Position numbers and translations under genes: made by a program. The notes beneath the pieces were generated by a model. It saw only the letters and a program-made list of their open reading frames with translations, did no database searches and was not told where the DNA came from. Positions 40,645 to 49,321 of a stretch of 64,000 bases of DNA are shown here, one piece after another. The first letter of the stretch is position 1. Each line of letters begins with the position of its first letter. The stretch is from a bacterium (lineage in GTDB: Bacteria; Vulcanimicrobiota; Vulcanimicrobiia; Vulcanimicrobiales; Vulcanimicrobiaceae). Where the stretch lies: the NCBI GenBank assembly GCA_021805775.1, contig JAJZED010000001.1, positions 84,250-148,249 of the forward strand, in the 5' to 3' direction.

Positions 40645-41028
40645 GTGGAGCATTTCGTCCCAATCGTCGGCATCGTGCTGCTATGGCTGTTTTTCGGCGG
40701 CAAGAAACGCGGCAATGCTTCGTGCGGAGCGAGGCGCTCGTCGTGGCGCAATGCTTGGCGCGCTCGGTCGAGTGCATTCGCAGCCTCGCAGAACCCTGCG
40801 GAAGAGGATGGCGAGGATGGCGACGATGCATCGGAGAGCGCTCCGGTCGCCGTAGCGACGAACTATTCCCAGCCCACCCCTCAGAGTAGGCGCTCCGCGC
40901 GCTCGCCCTTCGCCGGTGCCGCCGCACCGCTCGCTCCGCTCGCTCCCCTCGCTCCGCGCAGCGCATCCGGCGCGCGCGCGGCGCTTCCTCCGCTACCACC
41001 AATCGCCCGTAAAGGACAATCCACCTAA
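40645..41028 (+). CDS. Small membrane protein with Pro/Ala-rich tail, SPFH cluster
   Basis: The GTG start gives 127 residues. One hydrophobic segment lies at the N-terminus (VPIVGIVLLWLFFGG), followed by KKRG and a long polar, low-complexity tail that includes PLAPLAPLAP, coded by a 9-bp tandem repeat at 40927-40953. No family is recognised. The main evidence that it is real is the TAATG overlap with the SPFH gene and the start 31 bp after cobB. It could anchor the SPFH protein to the membrane, which is inference. Confidence 0.55.
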   Translation: MEHFVPIVGIVLLWLFFGGKKRGNASCGARRSSWRNAWRARSSAFAASQNPAEEDGEDGDDASESAPVAVATNYSQPTPQSRRSARSPFAGAAAPLAPLAPLAPRSASGARAALPPLPPIARKGQST

Positions 41029-41861
41029 TGCCGATCATGAGCGTTATCTCCACCCTCGACAACAACGGCCAAGAGGTGATGGGCCCCGAGGTCCTCATCT
41101 ATCATTATCCGTCGGCGAGTATCGTGAGCGGTTCGTTGCTCACCGTCGAGAGCAATCACTTTTGCGTGTTGAAATCGCGTGGTGCGATCCTCAACGTTTA
41201 CGAAACCGGGCAATATCCGATCACGACCGGAGATAAACCGCTCGTCGGATCATTCGTGCAGGGCTTCTTCGGCGGGCAGAGCCCGTGGCAATACGAAGCA
41301 ATCTATATCAATCGTGCGAAACTCGTCGTTCGCTCGTCGGGCATAGCGCTCTCGGCCGAGATGGCCGAGATGAGCTACGACGTCGATTATTACATTCACG
41401 TACCGACCAAAGACGGTGCGCTCAAACTCGTCCAACACATGCCGTATCGTGGCCACGCATTGCTGACCGACCAGATCAACGATTACGCCGGCCCGGTGGT
41501 CGAACAAGCGATCAACCAACTCATTCAAGTAACGCCGCTGGAAAAAGTCAATGAAAAAATTCACGATCTCACCGATCTCGTGCGCACGCACCTGAGCGAA
41601 TTTCTCGACGGGTACGGCATCGCGCTCGACACCGTCAAGGTGCTCGTGCGCCCGAACGACGAACGGATGCGGGCGCTCATCTCGCTCAAGGCATTCGGGC
41701 TCACCGAGATGGAAGCGGTGCGATATTACGCAGCGATCCTGATGGCCGAGCGCGGCGTATCGAGCGCGCCGAATATGGCGATCGGGCAGCCGTTCACGAT
41801 CGGCGCGACGCCGGTTCTTCCGGTCGGCAACGCGGACGCCGGAACGGCGACGGAGAAATGA
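41028..41861 (+). CDS. SPFH-domain protein
   Basis: A 277-residue protein of the stomatin/prohibitin/flotillin superfamily, closest in style to the YdjI-type members annotated as virion core protein in bacteria. The N-terminal half is the SPFH beta domain (VLIYHYPSASIVSGSLLTVE, GAILNVYETGQYPITTGDKP, QYEAIYINRAKLVVRSSG). A helical part follows (QAINQLIQVTPLEKVNEKIHDL, LDGYGIALDTVKVLVRPND). No membrane helix is present, so it needs a partner to reach the membrane. Such proteins form rings or scaffolds. Overlaps both neighbours (TAATG before, ATGA after). Confidence 0.85.
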   Translation: MPIMSVISTLDNNGQEVMGPEVLIYHYPSASIVSGSLLTVESNHFCVLKSRGAILNVYETGQYPITTGDKPLVGSFVQGFFGGQSPWQYEAIYINRAKLVVRSSGIALSAEMAEMSYDVDYYIHVPTKDGALKLVQHMPYRGHALLTDQINDYAGPVVEQAINQLIQVTPLEKVNEKIHDLTDLVRTHLSEFLDGYGIALDTVKVLVRPNDERMRALISLKAFGLTEMEAVRYYAAILMAERGVSSAPNMAIGQPFTIGATPVLPVGNADAGTATEK

Positions 41862-42472
41862 ACCCGGCGATACCGTCGGAGGATATCGTGCGGGCGCTGC
41901 TCGATCCGTCGCAGCCCTCGCACGATCCGTCGGTCGCCATCGTGCAGGTCGCCCTCAGCGGCTTCGGCTTTAATTTCTACGACGCGCGCAACCAAGCTCG
42001 GGCGAACGATTTGCTCGTGCGCGAGCGCGTCTCGAATTTACTCGCCGACGCCGCAGCGCGCGTTCGTAAGCTCGAGGCGCGCTATCGCGAGCGGTTTATT
42101 CCCGCGGCGACGCGCGAAGAGCCGTTCCCACCCCCCAACGCATTGCGGAGAGCGAAGGCGCTCCACGAGCTCACCGCACGGCTCGATGCGGCGTGCTCGG
42201 AGATCCTCACGCTCGAGGTGCCTGGCGCCGACCCGATCTGGTCGCGGCTTCGCGATGAATTGCCGACGCTCCATCGCTTGGTTGCCTTCGACGTCGGGCT
42301 TGCGACCGCAGCGACCGCGCTCTTCGAACGGGCGAACGCTCTTACCCCGGAGGAGGTGGAGAGCGACGGAGCATTCGAAGCCTTTGAGGGCGATTTTTCG
42401 GTTCTGCAAAAGGCTTTACGCGAACGGCGCGCCCTGCTCTTCGGATCGGGCCCGGCACTCCCGCAGAGCTGA
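41858..42472 (+). CDS. Unknown helical protein coupled to the SPFH gene
   Basis: A 204-residue soluble protein. Its ATG overlaps the SPFH stop (ATGA). It is mostly alpha-helical and rich in Arg, Glu, Ala and Leu: QARANDLLVRERVSNLLADA, ARVRKLEARYRERF, LHELTARLDAACSEILTLE, FEGDFSVLQKALRERRALLF. I see no catalytic motif and no known family. The tight coupling suggests a dedicated partner of the SPFH ring. A stem-loop follows 5 bp after the stop. Confidence 0.65.
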   Translation: MNPAIPSEDIVRALLDPSQPSHDPSVAIVQVALSGFGFNFYDARNQARANDLLVRERVSNLLADAAARVRKLEARYRERFIPAATREEPFPPPNALRRAKALHELTARLDAACSEILTLEVPGADPIWSRLRDELPTLHRLVAFDVGLATAATALFERANALTPEEVESDGAFEAFEGDFSVLQKALRERRALLFGSGPALPQS

Positions 42473-42547: not shown

Positions 42548-45500
42548 ATGTGGTTGACCCGATTTGCGATATCCCGACCGATGGTCACCGCCGCGATCTT
42601 CATCGCGCTCGCCATCGCCGGCTTCGTCGCCTTCCTGCAGATCGGACGTAGCGCGAATCCGCCGGGCACCGATTTTCCGCTGGTGATCGTCGCCGCGGGA
42701 TATCCCGGGGCATCACCGCAGACGATGGAAAAATTGGTCGTCAAACCGATCGAAGACCAACTCGTCGGTACGCAAAATATGGATCAGGTGACGGCGACGA
42801 CGCAGGAAGGGAGCGCCGTCGTCTTAGTGCGCTTCAAGCTGGGAACCAACCTCGACATCGCCGCAATCGACGTCCAGCGCCGCGTCGATACCGCGCGTAT
42901 CTATATGCCCGCCGATATGGATCCGCCATCGGTGGAGCGGAACGGCGCCTCGCAACCGTTGCTCGACCTCGCGTTGAGTTCGTCGACGCTCTCGCCGATG
43001 CAACTCGCCGATCTAACCACGAATCAAATCGAGCCGATGCTGCAAGAGATTCCGAACGTCCAGACCGTCGACGTCTACGGCCTCGCAACGCGGCAGTTCA
43101 ACGTACGGCCGAACCCGGCCGCGCTCGACGGCCTGGGCGCCACGCTCGGCGACGTGTTTAATGCCGTCGCCGGAAATAATGCGAATCTTCCCGGCGGTCT
43201 TCTGGAACAGCCCACGCGCGAAGCGACCGTTTCGATCCGTTCGGGAATCGACCATGCAAGCGATATCGCGGGCATTCCGCTCGTTATTCCCGGCGCGAGC
43301 GGCAAGAATCTTCGCGTCGGCGACGTCGCAAGGGTCGACGACGGCCATATTGAAATGCGATCGATTTCGCATTACAACGGGCAACCGCGCCTCTATGTAA
43401 GTTTAGGGCGCGCCATCGGCGCCGATGAAATTACCACCACGCAGGTCGCGCGCGAACATATCAAAGAGATCGAGAAGCAATTTCCGCAGGTGACCTTCCA
43501 CGAAATCGACGCGCCGGCCGATTTCACGCAAAAGTCGCTCATCGGCGTTTGGCAGTCTCTTTTCGAAGGAGTCGTGCTGACGGCGATCGTGATGATGCTC
43601 TTCCTCCACGCGTGGCGCAACGCAGCCGTCGTGATGATCTCGATCCCGACTTCCATCTTGTCGACCTTCGTGTTGATGAAAGCGTTTGGTTTTCATATCG
43701 ATAGTATGTCGATGATGGGGCTGGCGCTTATTATCGGAATTCTCGTCGACGATTCTATCGTCGTTCTGGAAAATATCACGCGCCATCGGGAGATGGGGAA
43801 AGATTCGCACGCCGCTGCCGTCGACGGACGAACGGAGATCGGCGGGGCGGCGGTCGCGATCACCATGGTCGACGTCGTCGTTTTTCTGCCGATTGCGTTT
43901 TTGCCCGGCATCGTTGGGGCGTATCTTAAAGAATACGCGGCGGTCGTCGTCATCGCGACGCTCTTTTCGTTGTTGGTCTCCTTCACTTTGACGCCGATGT
44001 TGGCAGCGTTTTGGAGCGTCAAGAAAATCGAAAAAGAACCGCCGCGCTGGCTCGCCGCCCTCGATACCCGGCGCGCGCACTTTTCGGTGTTTATCGCGGC
44101 CGTCGTTCTCTTTGCCTCGGGAGCACTATTTCACGCCACCATTCTCAACGTATTCGGCGTGTTTGCACTCGCGCTCTTGTTGCTCAATCTTTTCGTGCAT
44201 CGTTATGGTGCGGTGCTCGATCTCTACCGTACGCGGTTGCTCCCGGCCGCGCTGCGGCACGGAAGCTTCGTGGCATTTGTATGTGCGGTGTTGCTGGTGA
44301 ATGCGCTCGCTTTGGTGGGGAACGGCAGAAATGCGATCGGCATCGATGCCGTCATCGTTATCGGCACCTTGCTGACCTACGGTTACGCCGCCTTCCTCCG
44401 AGGGCGCACGCGCGTACGGCCGTGGCTACGAGGGATAGCGTCGCTCGGCTCGCATCGTTCGACGGCTCTGGCAACGCTGATTCTGCCGCCGGTGCTTGCG
44501 GTGGCGATGACGGCGCTCGGCGGTATCAACTTCGATGTCCTTCCCGCCGAACAGACCGGACATATCCGCATGACGCTGGCGTACACCCCCGGCACCCCGA
44601 TCGGCGTGACGGCGAAGGGTGTCGACGCTATCGAACAGGCGATTATGAAACTTCCGGGGGTGAAGTCGGTGAGCTCGACTGTGGGGAGGATGCCCTCGGG
44701 CTGGGGCTCGCTCACCGGCGGCAATTACGCGCAACTCGATGCGAACATGCACGCCGTCGATCGTGGCGCAACGAATGCGACGATTGCAAAGATTCGCGCC
44801 TTCGCCGCACTCGCGCCGGGCGGAGATTTCCAGGTCGCCGGTGACACGGGGAGCGGCAGCGGTCAGCCGATCTTTTACGCCGTGCAAGGACCCGACAACG
44901 AAATCGACGCCGCCGCCGAAAAGGTCGCCAACGTATTGCGACAGACGAAGGGTTCGGTCAACGTGCAGACATCCGCCGAGGTCGCCGCGCCGGAACTACG
45001 AGTCGCGATAGAACGCGGGAAAGCGATTTTGCTCGGCGTCTCGCCGGCGGCCGCCGCCGAAGCCGCGCGCATCGCGATTGCCGGGGCGGTAGCGACGCGC
45101 GTGCGAACGCCGAACGGCCTTATCGACGTCTACGTACAATTTCCAAAAGCCGACCGCAGCACGCTCGCGCAATTGCAGAACGTGAAAGTTCGCGCCTCGG
45201 ACGGGACGCTGATCCCTCTGGGCGACTTGGCGCGTTTCCGCTGGGAAAAAGCGCCGACGAAGATCGAACGTTACGATCGCCAACGCGTCGTCAACGTGCT
45301 CGGCGACGTCCTGCCCGGCTACGCCCTCGGCGCCGTCGTCGCTCCGCTCGAAAAGAAATTGAGCGAGCCCGGCTTCCTGCCCGCCGGCGTCCACCTAAAG
45401 GCGCAGGGAGACACGCAGTTTCTCTCCGAAACGCTCGCGAACATGGGAATCGCTCTGCTGACTTCGTTCGGGCTCGTCTATTTGCTGATGGTGATTCTCT

Positions 45501-46006
45501 ACGGGAATCTGCTCGAGCCGCTCATCGTGATGTTCTCGGTTCCGGTTGCAATCGTCGGTGCGCTGATGCTGCTGGCGTTTATGGGGCATCTTCCCGGCGA
45601 ACTCGGCCAGTCGCTCAATATTATCTCGATGTTGGGAATCGTGATGCTCTTCGGGTTGGTCGCGAAAAACGGTATCTTGTTGGTCGATTACTCGAATACG
45701 CTCTGCAAGCGCGGAATGCGCGTGCGCGATGCCGTGCTCGAAGCCGCTGCCACGCGATTCCGCCCGATTCTTATGACGACGGCGGCGATGATCTTCGGAA
45801 TGTTGCCGCTCGCGCTTGGTTTCGCCGAGGGAGCGGAGTGGCGCCAAGCGATGGGCACCGTGATCATCGGCGGCCTGCTCTCTTCGCTGGTGCTCACACT
45901 CTTTCTCGTTCCGATGATCTACAACACGTGGATGGGTGCGCTCGAGCGACGGGCGGATCGGCGCGCGGTTCGCGCCGAGCTCTCGCCGGTGGGTGCGACG
46001 CATTAA
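42548..46006 (+). CDS. RND family transporter with enlarged central membrane region
   Basis: A proton-driven efflux pump of the HAE-1/AcrB type. It has 1152 residues, while the family is usually near 1030-1050. It shows the N-terminal FAISRPMVTAAIFIALAIAG, porter-domain stretches (QEGSAVVLVRFKLGTNLDIA, PRLYVSLGRA), the proton-relay aspartates in LIIGILVDDSIVVLENI and the partner lysine in LFGLVAKNGILLVDYSN. The extra length lies at about residues 505-635, between the sixth and seventh standard helices, and contains about four more hydrophobic segments. AAGGAG precedes the ATG. No membrane-fusion protein or TolC-like gene is adjacent. Confidence 0.93.
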   Translation: MWLTRFAISRPMVTAAIFIALAIAGFVAFLQIGRSANPPGTDFPLVIVAAGYPGASPQTMEKLVVKPIEDQLVGTQNMDQVTATTQEGSAVVLVRFKLGTNLDIAAIDVQRRVDTARIYMPADMDPPSVERNGASQPLLDLALSSSTLSPMQLADLTTNQIEPMLQEIPNVQTVDVYGLATRQFNVRPNPAALDGLGATLGDVFNAVAGNNANLPGGLLEQPTREATVSIRSGIDHASDIAGIPLVIPGASGKNLRVGDVARVDDGHIEMRSISHYNGQPRLYVSLGRAIGADEITTTQVAREHIKEIEKQFPQVTFHEIDAPADFTQKSLIGVWQSLFEGVVLTAIVMMLFLHAWRNAAVVMISIPTSILSTFVLMKAFGFHIDSMSMMGLALIIGILVDDSIVVLENITRHREMGKDSHAAAVDGRTEIGGAAVAITMVDVVVFLPIAFLPGIVGAYLKEYAAVVVIATLFSLLVSFTLTPMLAAFWSVKKIEKEPPRWLAALDTRRAHFSVFIAAVVLFASGALFHATILNVFGVFALALLLLNLFVHRYGAVLDLYRTRLLPAALRHGSFVAFVCAVLLVNALALVGNGRNAIGIDAVIVIGTLLTYGYAAFLRGRTRVRPWLRGIASLGSHRSTALATLILPPVLAVAMTALGGINFDVLPAEQTGHIRMTLAYTPGTPIGVTAKGVDAIEQAIMKLPGVKSVSSTVGRMPSGWGSLTGGNYAQLDANMHAVDRGATNATIAKIRAFAALAPGGDFQVAGDTGSGSGQPIFYAVQGPDNEIDAAAEKVANVLRQTKGSVNVQTSAEVAAPELRVAIERGKAILLGVSPAAAAEAARIAIAGAVATRVRTPNGLIDVYVQFPKADRSTLAQLQNVKVRASDGTLIPLGDLARFRWEKAPTKIERYDRQRVVNVLGDVLPGYALGAVVAPLEKKLSEPGFLPAGVHLKAQGDTQFLSETLANMGIALLTSFGLVYLLMVILYGNLLEPLIVMFSVPVAIVGALMLLAFMGHLPGELGQSLNIISMLGIVMLFGLVAKNGILLVDYSNTLCKRGMRVRDAVLEAAATRFRPILMTTAAMIFGMLPLALGFAEGAEWRQAMGTVIIGGLLSSLVLTLFLVPMIYNTWMGALERRADRRAVRAELSPVGATH

Positions 46007-46760
46007 CGGTCGTTCGGTATTGGTGACCGGAGCGGCCTCGGGGCTCGCTTCCGGAATTGCAGCGGGGCTCGCGCGCGATGGATTCGCTCGCGTTGCGATA
46101 ACGTGGCGCGAGAGCTCCCCGGAGGAGACCCTCGCTCGCATTCGTGCCGCCGGGGCAACGGCAAGCGCGACGCAAATCGACTTTCTCGCCGAGCAACACG
46201 AGATCGAGCGCGCGCTCGAGCTGTGCGTGAGCGAGCATGGCCCATTCGACACGCTCGTTCATGCCGTCGGTCCGTTGCGTTTCGCGCCGTTAGAACGCGC
46301 GGAGGGCGACGCGTTTCGCGCGATGTTCGACGGTAACGTTCGCAGCGCGTTGCTTGCCGCGAGGGCCGTCCTCCCCGCAATGCGCGCCGCAGGCTTCGGA
46401 AGGATCGTCGCCTTCGGCATGAACGGATCCGCGCAGGCCGGCGCGGCGCCGGGGCTTGGCCTCCATGCAGCGGCGAAGAGCGCGCTCGTATCCTTGCTGC
46501 GCACGCTCGCCGTCGAAGTGGCGGGGAGCGGCATTACCGTAAACGCCGTCGAGCCCGGCGATATCCGCGAAAAGACGCTCGAACGTGCCGAGGCGCGCAA
46601 GCGACCGGCAGCTAATCCGGTCGGCCGCGCCGGCTCCTACGAGGATGTGCTCGACGCGGTGCGTTTCTTCGTCGCGCCCGAGCGCGATTTTATCACCGGC
46701 GTCGTTCTTCCGGTAACCGGGGGGCTCCAGGGGCCGCACGAGCGAAATATACCGGGATGA
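45993..46760 (+). CDS. Short-chain dehydrogenase/reductase-like protein lacking the catalytic Tyr
   Basis: A Rossmann-fold SDR of 255 residues from GTG 45993, overlapping the RND gene by 14 bp. The cofactor loop is VLVTGAASGLASGIAAGLA, where the last Gly of TGxxxGxG is Ala. VHAVGP stands where NNAG is usual. The active-site helix reads GLGLHAAAKSALVSLLRTLA: Lys162 of YxxxK is kept but Tyr is replaced by His158. TVNAVEPGDI and FITGVVLPVTGG follow as in typical SDRs. It may be a reductase with altered chemistry or a non-catalytic binder. The substrate is unknown. Its stop overlaps the next ATG. Confidence 0.82.
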   Translation: MRRINGRSVLVTGAASGLASGIAAGLARDGFARVAITWRESSPEETLARIRAAGATASATQIDFLAEQHEIERALELCVSEHGPFDTLVHAVGPLRFAPLERAEGDAFRAMFDGNVRSALLAARAVLPAMRAAGFGRIVAFGMNGSAQAGAAPGLGLHAAAKSALVSLLRTLAVEVAGSGITVNAVEPGDIREKTLERAEARKRPAANPVGRAGSYEDVLDAVRFFVAPERDFITGVVLPVTGGLQGPHERNIPG

Positions 46761-49321
46761 CTTTTGCTCAGCGTATCGACGACGCCCACCGTGCCTTTGC
46801 TTTGCCGGGAGCGCGAGATCGGTACGGTCCCGATAAAACGGTCGAAGTCGAAGAGATCCTGCTTACGCTCGAGCCGCGCCTGGCAGAAGCGGTGCTCGAC
46901 GGCGTTTGCACCACGCGTATACGAGCCCTCGACGAACCCGTCGATCGGCTGGCATTCGACGCCGTCGATCTCGCGGTCAGTTCGGTAACCAGAGACGGCC
47001 AACCGCAACAGTATCGCGCGCGCGACGGTCGGTTGGAGATTCAGTTCGATCCGGTGCTTGCAGCAGGCGAACGCTGCGAGGTGAGCGTCGTCTACCGCGT
47101 GACGCGTCCGCGGGCCGGACTTTTTTTTATTGCCTCGAGCTCGGCGTATCCTCAAAAGGTCGCCCATTGCTGGACGCAGAGCCAGGACGAAAACGCTCGC
47201 TACTGGTTTCCCTGTCTCGATTATCCGCACTCCAAACAACCGACCGAGACGACGGTCGTCGTCGACGCAGGTTTATTCGCTCTAGCGAACGGCGAGTTGG
47301 TCGAACGCCGCGATGAAGCGGGCAAGAGCCTCTTTCGCTACCGACAAGCGGTAAAACATAGCACCTATCTCATGACGATGGTTGCCGGGCCGTTCGAAGA
47401 GATCGATCTCGGCACTGCGGGGGCGGCGAAAATTCCGGTGCTTCTCTATGCGTTGCCGGGGCGCGCCGATGACGCGCGTCGCGCGTTCGGCAAAACGCCT
47501 GCGATGATCGACTTGTTCGAAGAACGAATCGGCACGCAATACCCGTTCGCGCGATATTCGCAGATCGCCGTGAGCGATTTTATTTTCGGCGGAATGGAAA
47601 ATACGTCGGCGACGACGCAGACGGATCGGGTGCTTCACGACGAACGCGCGGCGCTCGATTACTCCGCCGATTTTCTTGCGGCGCACGAACTCGCGCATCA
47701 ATGGTTCGGCGATTTGCTCACCTGCCGAGACTGGGCGCACGCTTGGCTCAACGAAGGCTTTGCAACGTTTTTTGAGGGCGTCTGGTTCGAGCGCGATCTC
47801 GGATACGACGAATATCTCTACCACCACTTCGGCTGCCTTTCGAGATATCTCGACGAAGATGCGACGCGCTATCGGCGCCCGATCGTCTGCAATCGTTTTC
47901 GCGATCCGATTGAGTTGTTCGACCGTCATCTCTACGAAAAAGGTGCGTCGGTGCTGCACATTTTGCGCCGCGACCTCGGCGAGGCGCGATTCTGGCGATC
48001 TATTCGCCACTATGTCGCACAGAACGCACAGCGGAACGTTGAGACGATCGATCTCGTGCGCGCGATCGAAGAGAGCACGGGGCGCAACATGCGCGGGTTC
48101 TTCGATCGATGGGTGATGAAGGCCGGGCATCCCGAGTTGAAGATCGCGGCGACGTGGGACGCGAAACGTTCGGCATTAACGATTGCCGTCGACCAAGAAC
48201 AGGCGATCGATGAGGAGCATCCGCCGTTCCCGTTCGATCTGCCGGTCGGCCTTTTCGACGAACGCCCGCAATCGTTGCGACGCGATGCGGGATGCGAGCC
48301 GATCGTCGGCGAGCAGCGTCTGGTTTTGCGGGTGGAGCGGCAAAACGAGCGTTTCGTCATTCCTCGCACGCGCGAGCCGCAATTGATTCGCATCGATCCC
48401 GGAGCCGGGATTCTCGGAAAGGTGCGCTTTGCGCTCGGTGCGAGCGCCGCGGCAAACGTTCTCGTCGTCGATCCCGACCCGATAGCGCGAATTCGTGCCG
48501 CCGACGAACTCGTACGTGACGAAGGAAGCGCGGCGCGTTCCGCGCTTTCCGAAGCTTTCCGCAGCGAGCCGTTTTGGGGCGTACTCGCCGAAACGGCGCG
48601 GATGCTCGGCGCGAGCCGAGCTCCATGGGCGCGAGATATTCTCCTCCAAGCGCTCGAACACGAGCACCCGAAAGTGCGTCGCGCCGTCGCCGAGGCATTG
48701 GGAAACTGGCGCGAATCGGCGGTCGCCGACGCACTCGTCGTTCGAGCACGCGAGGATGCATCGTATCTCGTCTGCGCGGCGGCGGCACACGCGCTTGGAA
48801 AGACGCGCGACCATCGCGCGCTCGATCTCTTAACCGCGCTCTCGGATCAGCAGAGTTGGAATGGAACGATCGAAGCCGGTGCGGTCCGCGGCTTAGCCGA
48901 GCTCGCCGACGAGCGGGCCCTTCCGGCAATACTCTCCGCTTCGGCTCTCGGGCGCGATGAAGGACTACGGCGCGCCGCGGTTGCAGCGCTCGGACGTTTC
49001 GGAGAACTCGTCGAAGCGAAGCGCGGTGCGGCGATCGACGCGACGATCGGCTTGCTCGACGACCAAGCGTTTTTAGTGCAACTCGCCGCCATCTCTGCAC
49101 TCGAAGGACTCGGCGATGCGCGCGCACTCGGCGCGCTCGACCGATTGGCGCGAAGCGCGCACGATGGGCGCGCGCGCCGCGATGCCGCCGAGGCGGCGAT
49201 GACGATCCGAGAAGGGTTACGCGTTCCCGCTCAGGTGATGCATTTACGCGAAGATATCGACCGGTTGCGTGAAGAGCAAAAGAAGATCGCCGAGCGAATC
49301 GCGTCTCTCGAGACTCCGTAA
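46757..49321 (+). CDS. M1 family aminopeptidase with C-terminal HEAT repeats
   Basis: A zinc aminopeptidase of 854 residues. The catalytic domain has the substrate-binding FGGMENTSATT (about 277-287), the zinc site HELAHQWFG (His310, Glu311, His314) and NEGFATFFE with Glu333. The transition-state tyrosine is likely in LYEKGASVLHILRRDLG. Instead of the usual ERAP/PepN C-terminal domain, residues of about 600-825 form HEAT-like repeats (VRRAVAEALGNWRESAVADA, LRRAAVAALGRFGEL), and the end is a coiled coil (REDIDRLREEQKKIAERIAS). No signal peptide is present. The layout resembles Gly-rich M1 proteins of deep-branching bacteria. Confidence 0.93.
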   Translation: MTFAQRIDDAHRAFALPGARDRYGPDKTVEVEEILLTLEPRLAEAVLDGVCTTRIRALDEPVDRLAFDAVDLAVSSVTRDGQPQQYRARDGRLEIQFDPVLAAGERCEVSVVYRVTRPRAGLFFIASSSAYPQKVAHCWTQSQDENARYWFPCLDYPHSKQPTETTVVVDAGLFALANGELVERRDEAGKSLFRYRQAVKHSTYLMTMVAGPFEEIDLGTAGAAKIPVLLYALPGRADDARRAFGKTPAMIDLFEERIGTQYPFARYSQIAVSDFIFGGMENTSATTQTDRVLHDERAALDYSADFLAAHELAHQWFGDLLTCRDWAHAWLNEGFATFFEGVWFERDLGYDEYLYHHFGCLSRYLDEDATRYRRPIVCNRFRDPIELFDRHLYEKGASVLHILRRDLGEARFWRSIRHYVAQNAQRNVETIDLVRAIEESTGRNMRGFFDRWVMKAGHPELKIAATWDAKRSALTIAVDQEQAIDEEHPPFPFDLPVGLFDERPQSLRRDAGCEPIVGEQRLVLRVERQNERFVIPRTREPQLIRIDPGAGILGKVRFALGASAAANVLVVDPDPIARIRAADELVRDEGSAARSALSEAFRSEPFWGVLAETARMLGASRAPWARDILLQALEHEHPKVRRAVAEALGNWRESAVADALVVRAREDASYLVCAAAAHALGKTRDHRALDLLTALSDQQSWNGTIEAGAVRGLAELADERALPAILSASALGRDEGLRRAAVAALGRFGELVEAKRGAAIDATIGLLDDQAFLVQLAAISALEGLGDARALGALDRLARSAHDGRARRDAAEAAMTIREGLRVPAQVMHLREDIDRLREEQKKIAERIASLETP

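Follow-up and report, generated by a model that had tools for sequence, protein, structure and literature searches.

Proteins of the RND superfamily have 12 transmembrane (TM) helices, with 13 or 14 in some members (PMC8277102). For a gene in the 64,000-nucleotide stretch of DNA analyzed here (the window), the original prediction described the product as an RND pump with about 130 extra residues and four extra hydrophobic segments in mid-protein, a shape that was not recognized. The coordinates and the four segments quoted in that prediction are exact. The open reading frame at 42548-46006 on the + strand is uninterrupted and encodes 1152 residues. PF00873 of Pfam matches the protein with an E value of 1.2e-213 (712 bits) in two stretches that cover both halves (positions 2-497 and 530-1018), with the break at about residue 498. 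The NCBIfam RND models are interrupted near the same point; taken together, the matches stop at about residues 488-508 and resume past the insert. All of the NCBIfam models for named multidrug RND subfamilies (NF033617, NF000282, TIGR00915, and others) score under their curated cutoffs, with 649 bits against a cutoff of 1250 for NF033617. No such insert turned up in Pfam, NCBIfam, PDB, or plasmid RNDs, and the protein matches none of the RND subfamilies described in these libraries, in agreement with the unfamiliarity noted at the outset.

A sequence comparison with solved structures ranks MdtB, AdeJ, and AcrD-like pumps highest, with alignments that are split around the linker. An AlphaFold2 model made from 29 sequences is of moderate confidence (overall pLDDT, 73.5; pTM, 0.61) and contains an AcrB-like fold with two periplasmic domains; in Foldseek it retrieves AcrD, AdeJ, and AcrB at E values of about 1e-57 and a TM-score of about 0.7 by query length, at an identity to solved RND members of only 22 to 25%. 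Instead of the 12 TM helices of the PF00873 family, 16 are predicted, and all 12 core helices are among them. The protein is best described as an enlarged variant of the PF00873/HAE family rather than a standard member.

The first half of the protein (residues 1-489; 42548-44014, + strand) comprises TM1, the periplasmic PN domains, and TM2 to TM6, together repeat R1, as delimited by the first PF00873 stretch and the TM scan. The second half (44543-46006, + strand), delimited by the second PF00873 stretch and the alignment with AcrB, holds the PC domains and TM8 to TM12, which make up most of repeat R2. The proton relay, predicted to be retained, is intact in an alignment with Escherichia coli AcrB: D401 and D402 (43748-43753) correspond to AcrB D407 and D408 in TM4, K1040 (45665-45667) to K940 in TM10, and R1070 (45755-45757) and T1077 (45776-45778) to R971 and T978 in TM11. 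Because these residues are conserved, proton-coupled transport as in AcrB would be the natural expectation by analogy. At the periplasmic end of TM10, the site equivalent to D924 of AcrB carries asparagine (N1024; 45617-45619) in nearly all of these Eremiobacterota RNDs, with or without the hairpins described below.

Alignment with insert-free relatives (e.g., L049, L047, and L048) locates the additional residues. The region that begins at the end of TM6, takes in the conserved amphipathic linker helix I-alpha, and reaches TM7 has 153 residues in the window protein versus 59 in these relatives, and the stretch 488-670 has 183 residues versus 74. The extra length is about 110 to 115 residues in total, somewhat below the original estimate, and is split over two hairpins. 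Past canonical TM6 and ahead of the second periplasmic domain lie four extra predicted membrane helices, so the predicted count stands; the layout as a single insert does not, since by the alignment the two hairpins flank I-alpha/TM7.

Hairpin 1 consists of two extra TM helices before I-alpha (residues about 507-550; 44066-44197), called by a delta-G scan, modeled by AlphaFold2 as separate helices at 508-528 and 531-551, and missing from insert-free orthologues. It is followed by I-alpha (HRYGAVLDLYRTRLLPAALRH; residues 551-571; 44198-44260; AlphaFold2 helix 553-570), which aligns with I-alpha of the insert-free orthologues and of AcrB. The next segment, SFVAFVCAVLLVNALALV (residues 572-590; 44261-44317; AlphaFold2 helix 572-588), is canonical TM7 by sequence, as positions 54-100 of the insert profile, covering I-alpha/TM7, match insert-free RNDs, and it contains N585 (44300-44302). 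Hairpin 2 has a first helix at residues 595-618 (44330-44401; AlphaFold2 helix 595-618) with D600 at 44345-44347, a basic cytoplasmic loop at residues 619-636 (44402-44455) that is very variable in length in the alignment of orthologues, and a second helix at residues 637-665 (44456-44542; AlphaFold2 helix 637-657) that leads to the second periplasmic domain, entered at FDVLPAEQ; both helices are also called by the delta-G scan, and all of these features are on the + strand. The third segment originally counted as extra, FVAFVCAVLLVNALALVG, therefore aligns with canonical TM7, and the true fourth extra helix is 641-665 (LATLILPPVLAVAMTALGG), presumably taken for TM7 in the earlier reading. Either 572-590 or 637-665 may occupy the structural TM7 site; the sequence favors 572-590.

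Several lines of evidence suggest that the extra segments cross the membrane. The delta-G scan uses a biological-hydrophobicity (Hessa-type) scale, judged by its recovery of the canonical helices; it finds 16 TM helices in the window protein versus 12 in an insert-free orthologue, one weak periplasmic call common to both being left aside. AlphaFold2 places a helix over each segment of the extra region, at a pLDDT of about 70 to 85. Loop charges in 43 proteins obey the positive-inside rule on the predicted topology: lysine plus arginine averages 3.7, 3.3, and 7.2 per cytoplasmic loop, the highest value being that of the hairpin 2 loop, versus 0.19, 0.26, and 0.12 per periplasmic loop. Further, apart from two proteins with an odd number, the scan gives an even number of extra helices in the carriers (60 of 62), which is what a need to preserve topology would produce. 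Together with the positive-inside loops, these counts bear out the original argument that an even number of added segments, here four, would leave the remaining topology unchanged. In some scan windows, the scores are weak for the first hairpin 1 helix and for the last helix (1.3 and 0.75 kcal/mol), as they might be if the segments were re-entrant or lay on the cytoplasmic side. Most segments, however, have negative delta-G values, and the full-length AlphaFold2 helices, the loop charges, and the pairing of the extra helices also argue against a nonspanning arrangement, which we consider highly improbable.

The enlarged linker cannot be attributed to a frameshift, an assembly artifact, or chance, because many independent metagenome-assembled genomes share this open frame, with the insert conserved. 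Insert identity is 81 to 98% across the genus, in independent assemblies, and about 30 to 56% across the family. The insert region is matched in 76 of the 99 genomes of the window's GTDB family, as a rule in one copy each, with the weakest few of these matches covering I-alpha/TM7 only. Among 149 genomes of the phylum, only those of this family match the insert profile both strongly and over its full length. The other phyla were covered by a scan of 84,980 species genomes with patterns derived from the window insert, which matched 32 loci, and unrelated hairpins may occur at the same site elsewhere; those loci with informative titles all belong to Candidatus Eremiobacterota (or Eremiobacteria). 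The Eremiobacterota are little-known bacteria of soil and mine water. Our literature search found no paper on RND proteins in this phylum or on additional helices in the TM6-TM7 interval.

For the insert, Pfam yields scattered single-member matches only, at E values of 0.003 or weaker, a profile search of the PDB gives no match, and Foldseek with the insert alone finds nothing below an E value of 2.8; on these results, the fusion of a known domain was rejected. A stand-alone homologue in Eremiobacterota genomes was rejected as well, as the matches listed sit in long, RND-sized open frames or fragments thereof. Internal duplication of RND helices and derivation of hairpin 1 from hairpin 2 were rejected on hhalign probabilities of less than 5%. 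Plasmid-borne RNDs gave no match to the insert; among the plasmid matches listed, the 17 that cover both halves span about 2.9 to 3.0 kb, too short to contain it.

Relatives carry 0, 2, or 4 extra helices, corresponding to 12, 14, or 16 predicted TM helices. As classified by the delta-G scan, both hairpins (pre2post2) are present in 41 proteins, plus 2 with one further helix call; hairpin 2 only (pre0post2) in 12; two hairpins after TM7 (pre0post4) in 5; hairpin 1 only (pre2post0) in 2, a paralogue pair from another family; and no hairpin in 29, including paralogues and the three further RNDs of the window's genome. A quick tree built without the insert columns, which has some long branches and in which gain and loss are indistinguishable, needs 8 state changes when all types are counted, of which 5 concern hairpin 2 and 3 concern hairpin 1. 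Within the window's clade, 39 of 40 members have both hairpins, the exception being L045, which lacks hairpin 1. The gene order OppB/OppC, RND, SDR, M1 aminopeptidase, PBP4, and TldD/E is found, whole or in part, at insert-bearing loci and at the insert-free loci L047, L048, L049, and L050. Because it is common to both linker states, the syntenic RNDs with and without the insert are most likely the same gene.

Other arrangements occur among the relatives. L058:7287-10598 and L059:10321-13626, paralogues in another family of the same class, have a hairpin before I-alpha only, and the tree suggests that it arose separately from hairpin 1 of the window protein. L036, L156, L160, L162, and L159 have no hairpin before I-alpha but two following TM7, reaching 16 predicted helices in a different layout. 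L155 has a tandem pair of adjacent RND genes with hairpin 2 in both.

The presence of hairpin 2 goes together with a pair of polar residues. In the 60 proteins with hairpin 2, column 585 in TM7 holds Asn in 56, Asp in 3, and Ser in 1, and column 600 in hairpin 2 holds Asp or Asn in all 60; none of 31 proteins without hairpin 2 has Asn or Asp at column 585. In the group formed by G012, G032, and G121, the pair is swapped to D585/N600. On the tree, the association of N585 with hairpin 2 yields 4 independent contrasts that all agree, too few for significance (sign test, p = 0.125). The simplest reading of these columns is a polar interhelix contact that would hold hairpin 2 to TM7; a putative protonatable site is also possible. 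At the level of sequence, this group combines an RND core and its relay with two predicted hairpins, their recurrent gain or loss in even numbers, and a link between hairpin 2 and N585/D600.

Recurrent gain or loss on the tree would also be expected of near-neutral additions to a cytoplasmic R1-R2 junction that tolerates insertion with little change in transport. The very variable loop lengths and the lack of a recognizable hairpin homologue outside RNDs in searches of Eremiobacterota genomes, Pfam, PDB, and Foldseek are consistent with this, as is the finding that MexB tolerates a break in its chain at the R1-R2 junction, the same site (PMC4359379). We nevertheless consider such neutrality rather unlikely, as A542, N547, R618, P647, and L657 are conserved in at least 42 of 43 proteins of the 16-helix clade, only one of its sampled members lacks hairpin 1, and N585/D600 is retained in every carrier group.

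No adaptor (HlyD-type/MFP) or OEP gene lies beside the permease (G000:C6:126797-130252), the nearest on the contig being more than 30 kb away, and none neighbors it in the conserved gene order of relatives; the gene thus lacks the adjacent adaptor that marks a tripartite HAE-1 efflux system. The window's own genome encodes four PF00873 permeases, with adaptor and outer-membrane channel genes elsewhere. Without such neighbors, the permease would borrow its adaptor and channel from elsewhere in the genome or work without them. Directly upstream, window positions 41028-42472 encode an SPFH/Band 7 protein followed by a 204-residue protein with no Pfam match, a pair seen only in the window's genus among the loci compared. 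At 46757-49321 is an M1 aminopeptidase in which HEAT repeats come after the catalytic domain, and beyond it lie a PBP4-type D-Ala-D-Ala carboxypeptidase and TldD/E; this peptide-handling neighborhood is conserved around the pump.

As an orphan without a nearby adaptor, the permease might use its hairpins mainly for folding, oligomer contact, or the recruitment of a partner such as an unlinked adaptor or a small membrane protein, rather than in transport itself. The conservation of N547 and W501, both outside the catalytic core, fits such a role. No consistent partner gene appears beyond the general neighbors, however, and the AcrB membrane domain makes its trimer contacts through TM1/TM8 rather than TM7 (PMC8277102), making this role distinctly doubtful.

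Comparison with better-known pumps places the hairpins in context. The window protein resembles the HAE-1 permeases (AcrB, AcrD, AdeJ, MexB, and MdtB) in its whole fold, proton relay, I-alpha, and both periplasmic domains and differs from them in the four extra predicted helices flanking I-alpha/TM7 and in the lack of an adjacent adaptor gene. In NPC1, which has 13 TM helices, the extra helix is located elsewhere. Like the RND members with 13 or 14 helices (PMC8277102), the window group exceeds 12, but it reaches up to 16, with additions in mid-protein around I-alpha that vary among relatives at one locus. Such variation among 12, 14, and 16 helices is unusual for a well-studied family. A functional parallel is AcrZ, a small membrane helix that modulates AcrB allosterically with lipid (PMC7267776). 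AcrZ-bound AcrB likewise has additional helical material by the RND membrane domain that is proposed to tune activity (PMC7267776), whereas the window helices are in the permease chain itself and form two hairpins rather than one helix; the parallel drawn is one of position and proposed role.

We favor, at a probability of roughly 0.55, a proton-driven HAE-type RND of Candidatus Eremiobacterota in which the R1-R2 hinge is enlarged by hairpins that act as built-in accessory helices tuning coupling or lateral entry. Hairpin 2 would be fastened to TM7 by N585 and D600, and both hairpins would pack on the lipid-facing periphery, in the vicinity of I-alpha, TM7, and the TM7/TM8 groove, doing in cis much what AcrZ does in trans for AcrB. 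They may modulate how R1 and R2 move, how the pump contacts lipid, or how substrate enters laterally; their function is probably the tuning of coupling or of lateral substrate entry. TM7 lies at the periphery, and substrate channel 1 begins at the TM7/8 groove (PMC8277102), so hairpins would be tolerated there and would be well placed to influence repeat motion, lipid contact, or lateral entry. The great variation in hairpin loop lengths is a point against modulation and also fits weakly constrained filler. A bolder version, which we regard as a long shot, is that the group is a distinct RND class in which both hairpins, with N585/D600, create an extra lateral gate or ion site at TM7, opening a membrane substrate route that 12-helix pumps do not use, and that the gain or loss of hairpins switches this module on or off in different lineages.

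The membrane domain of RND pumps is regarded as fixed at 12 helices, with 13 or 14 in some members. Close relatives with 12, 14, or 16 predicted helices, several of them at one locus and all with their additions at the R1-R2 hinge, amount to a natural experiment that can show where the transport cycle is open to change. They also illustrate concretely how a membrane protein may grow step by step without upsetting its topology, and N585/D600 gives a marker pair that can be tested by mutation.
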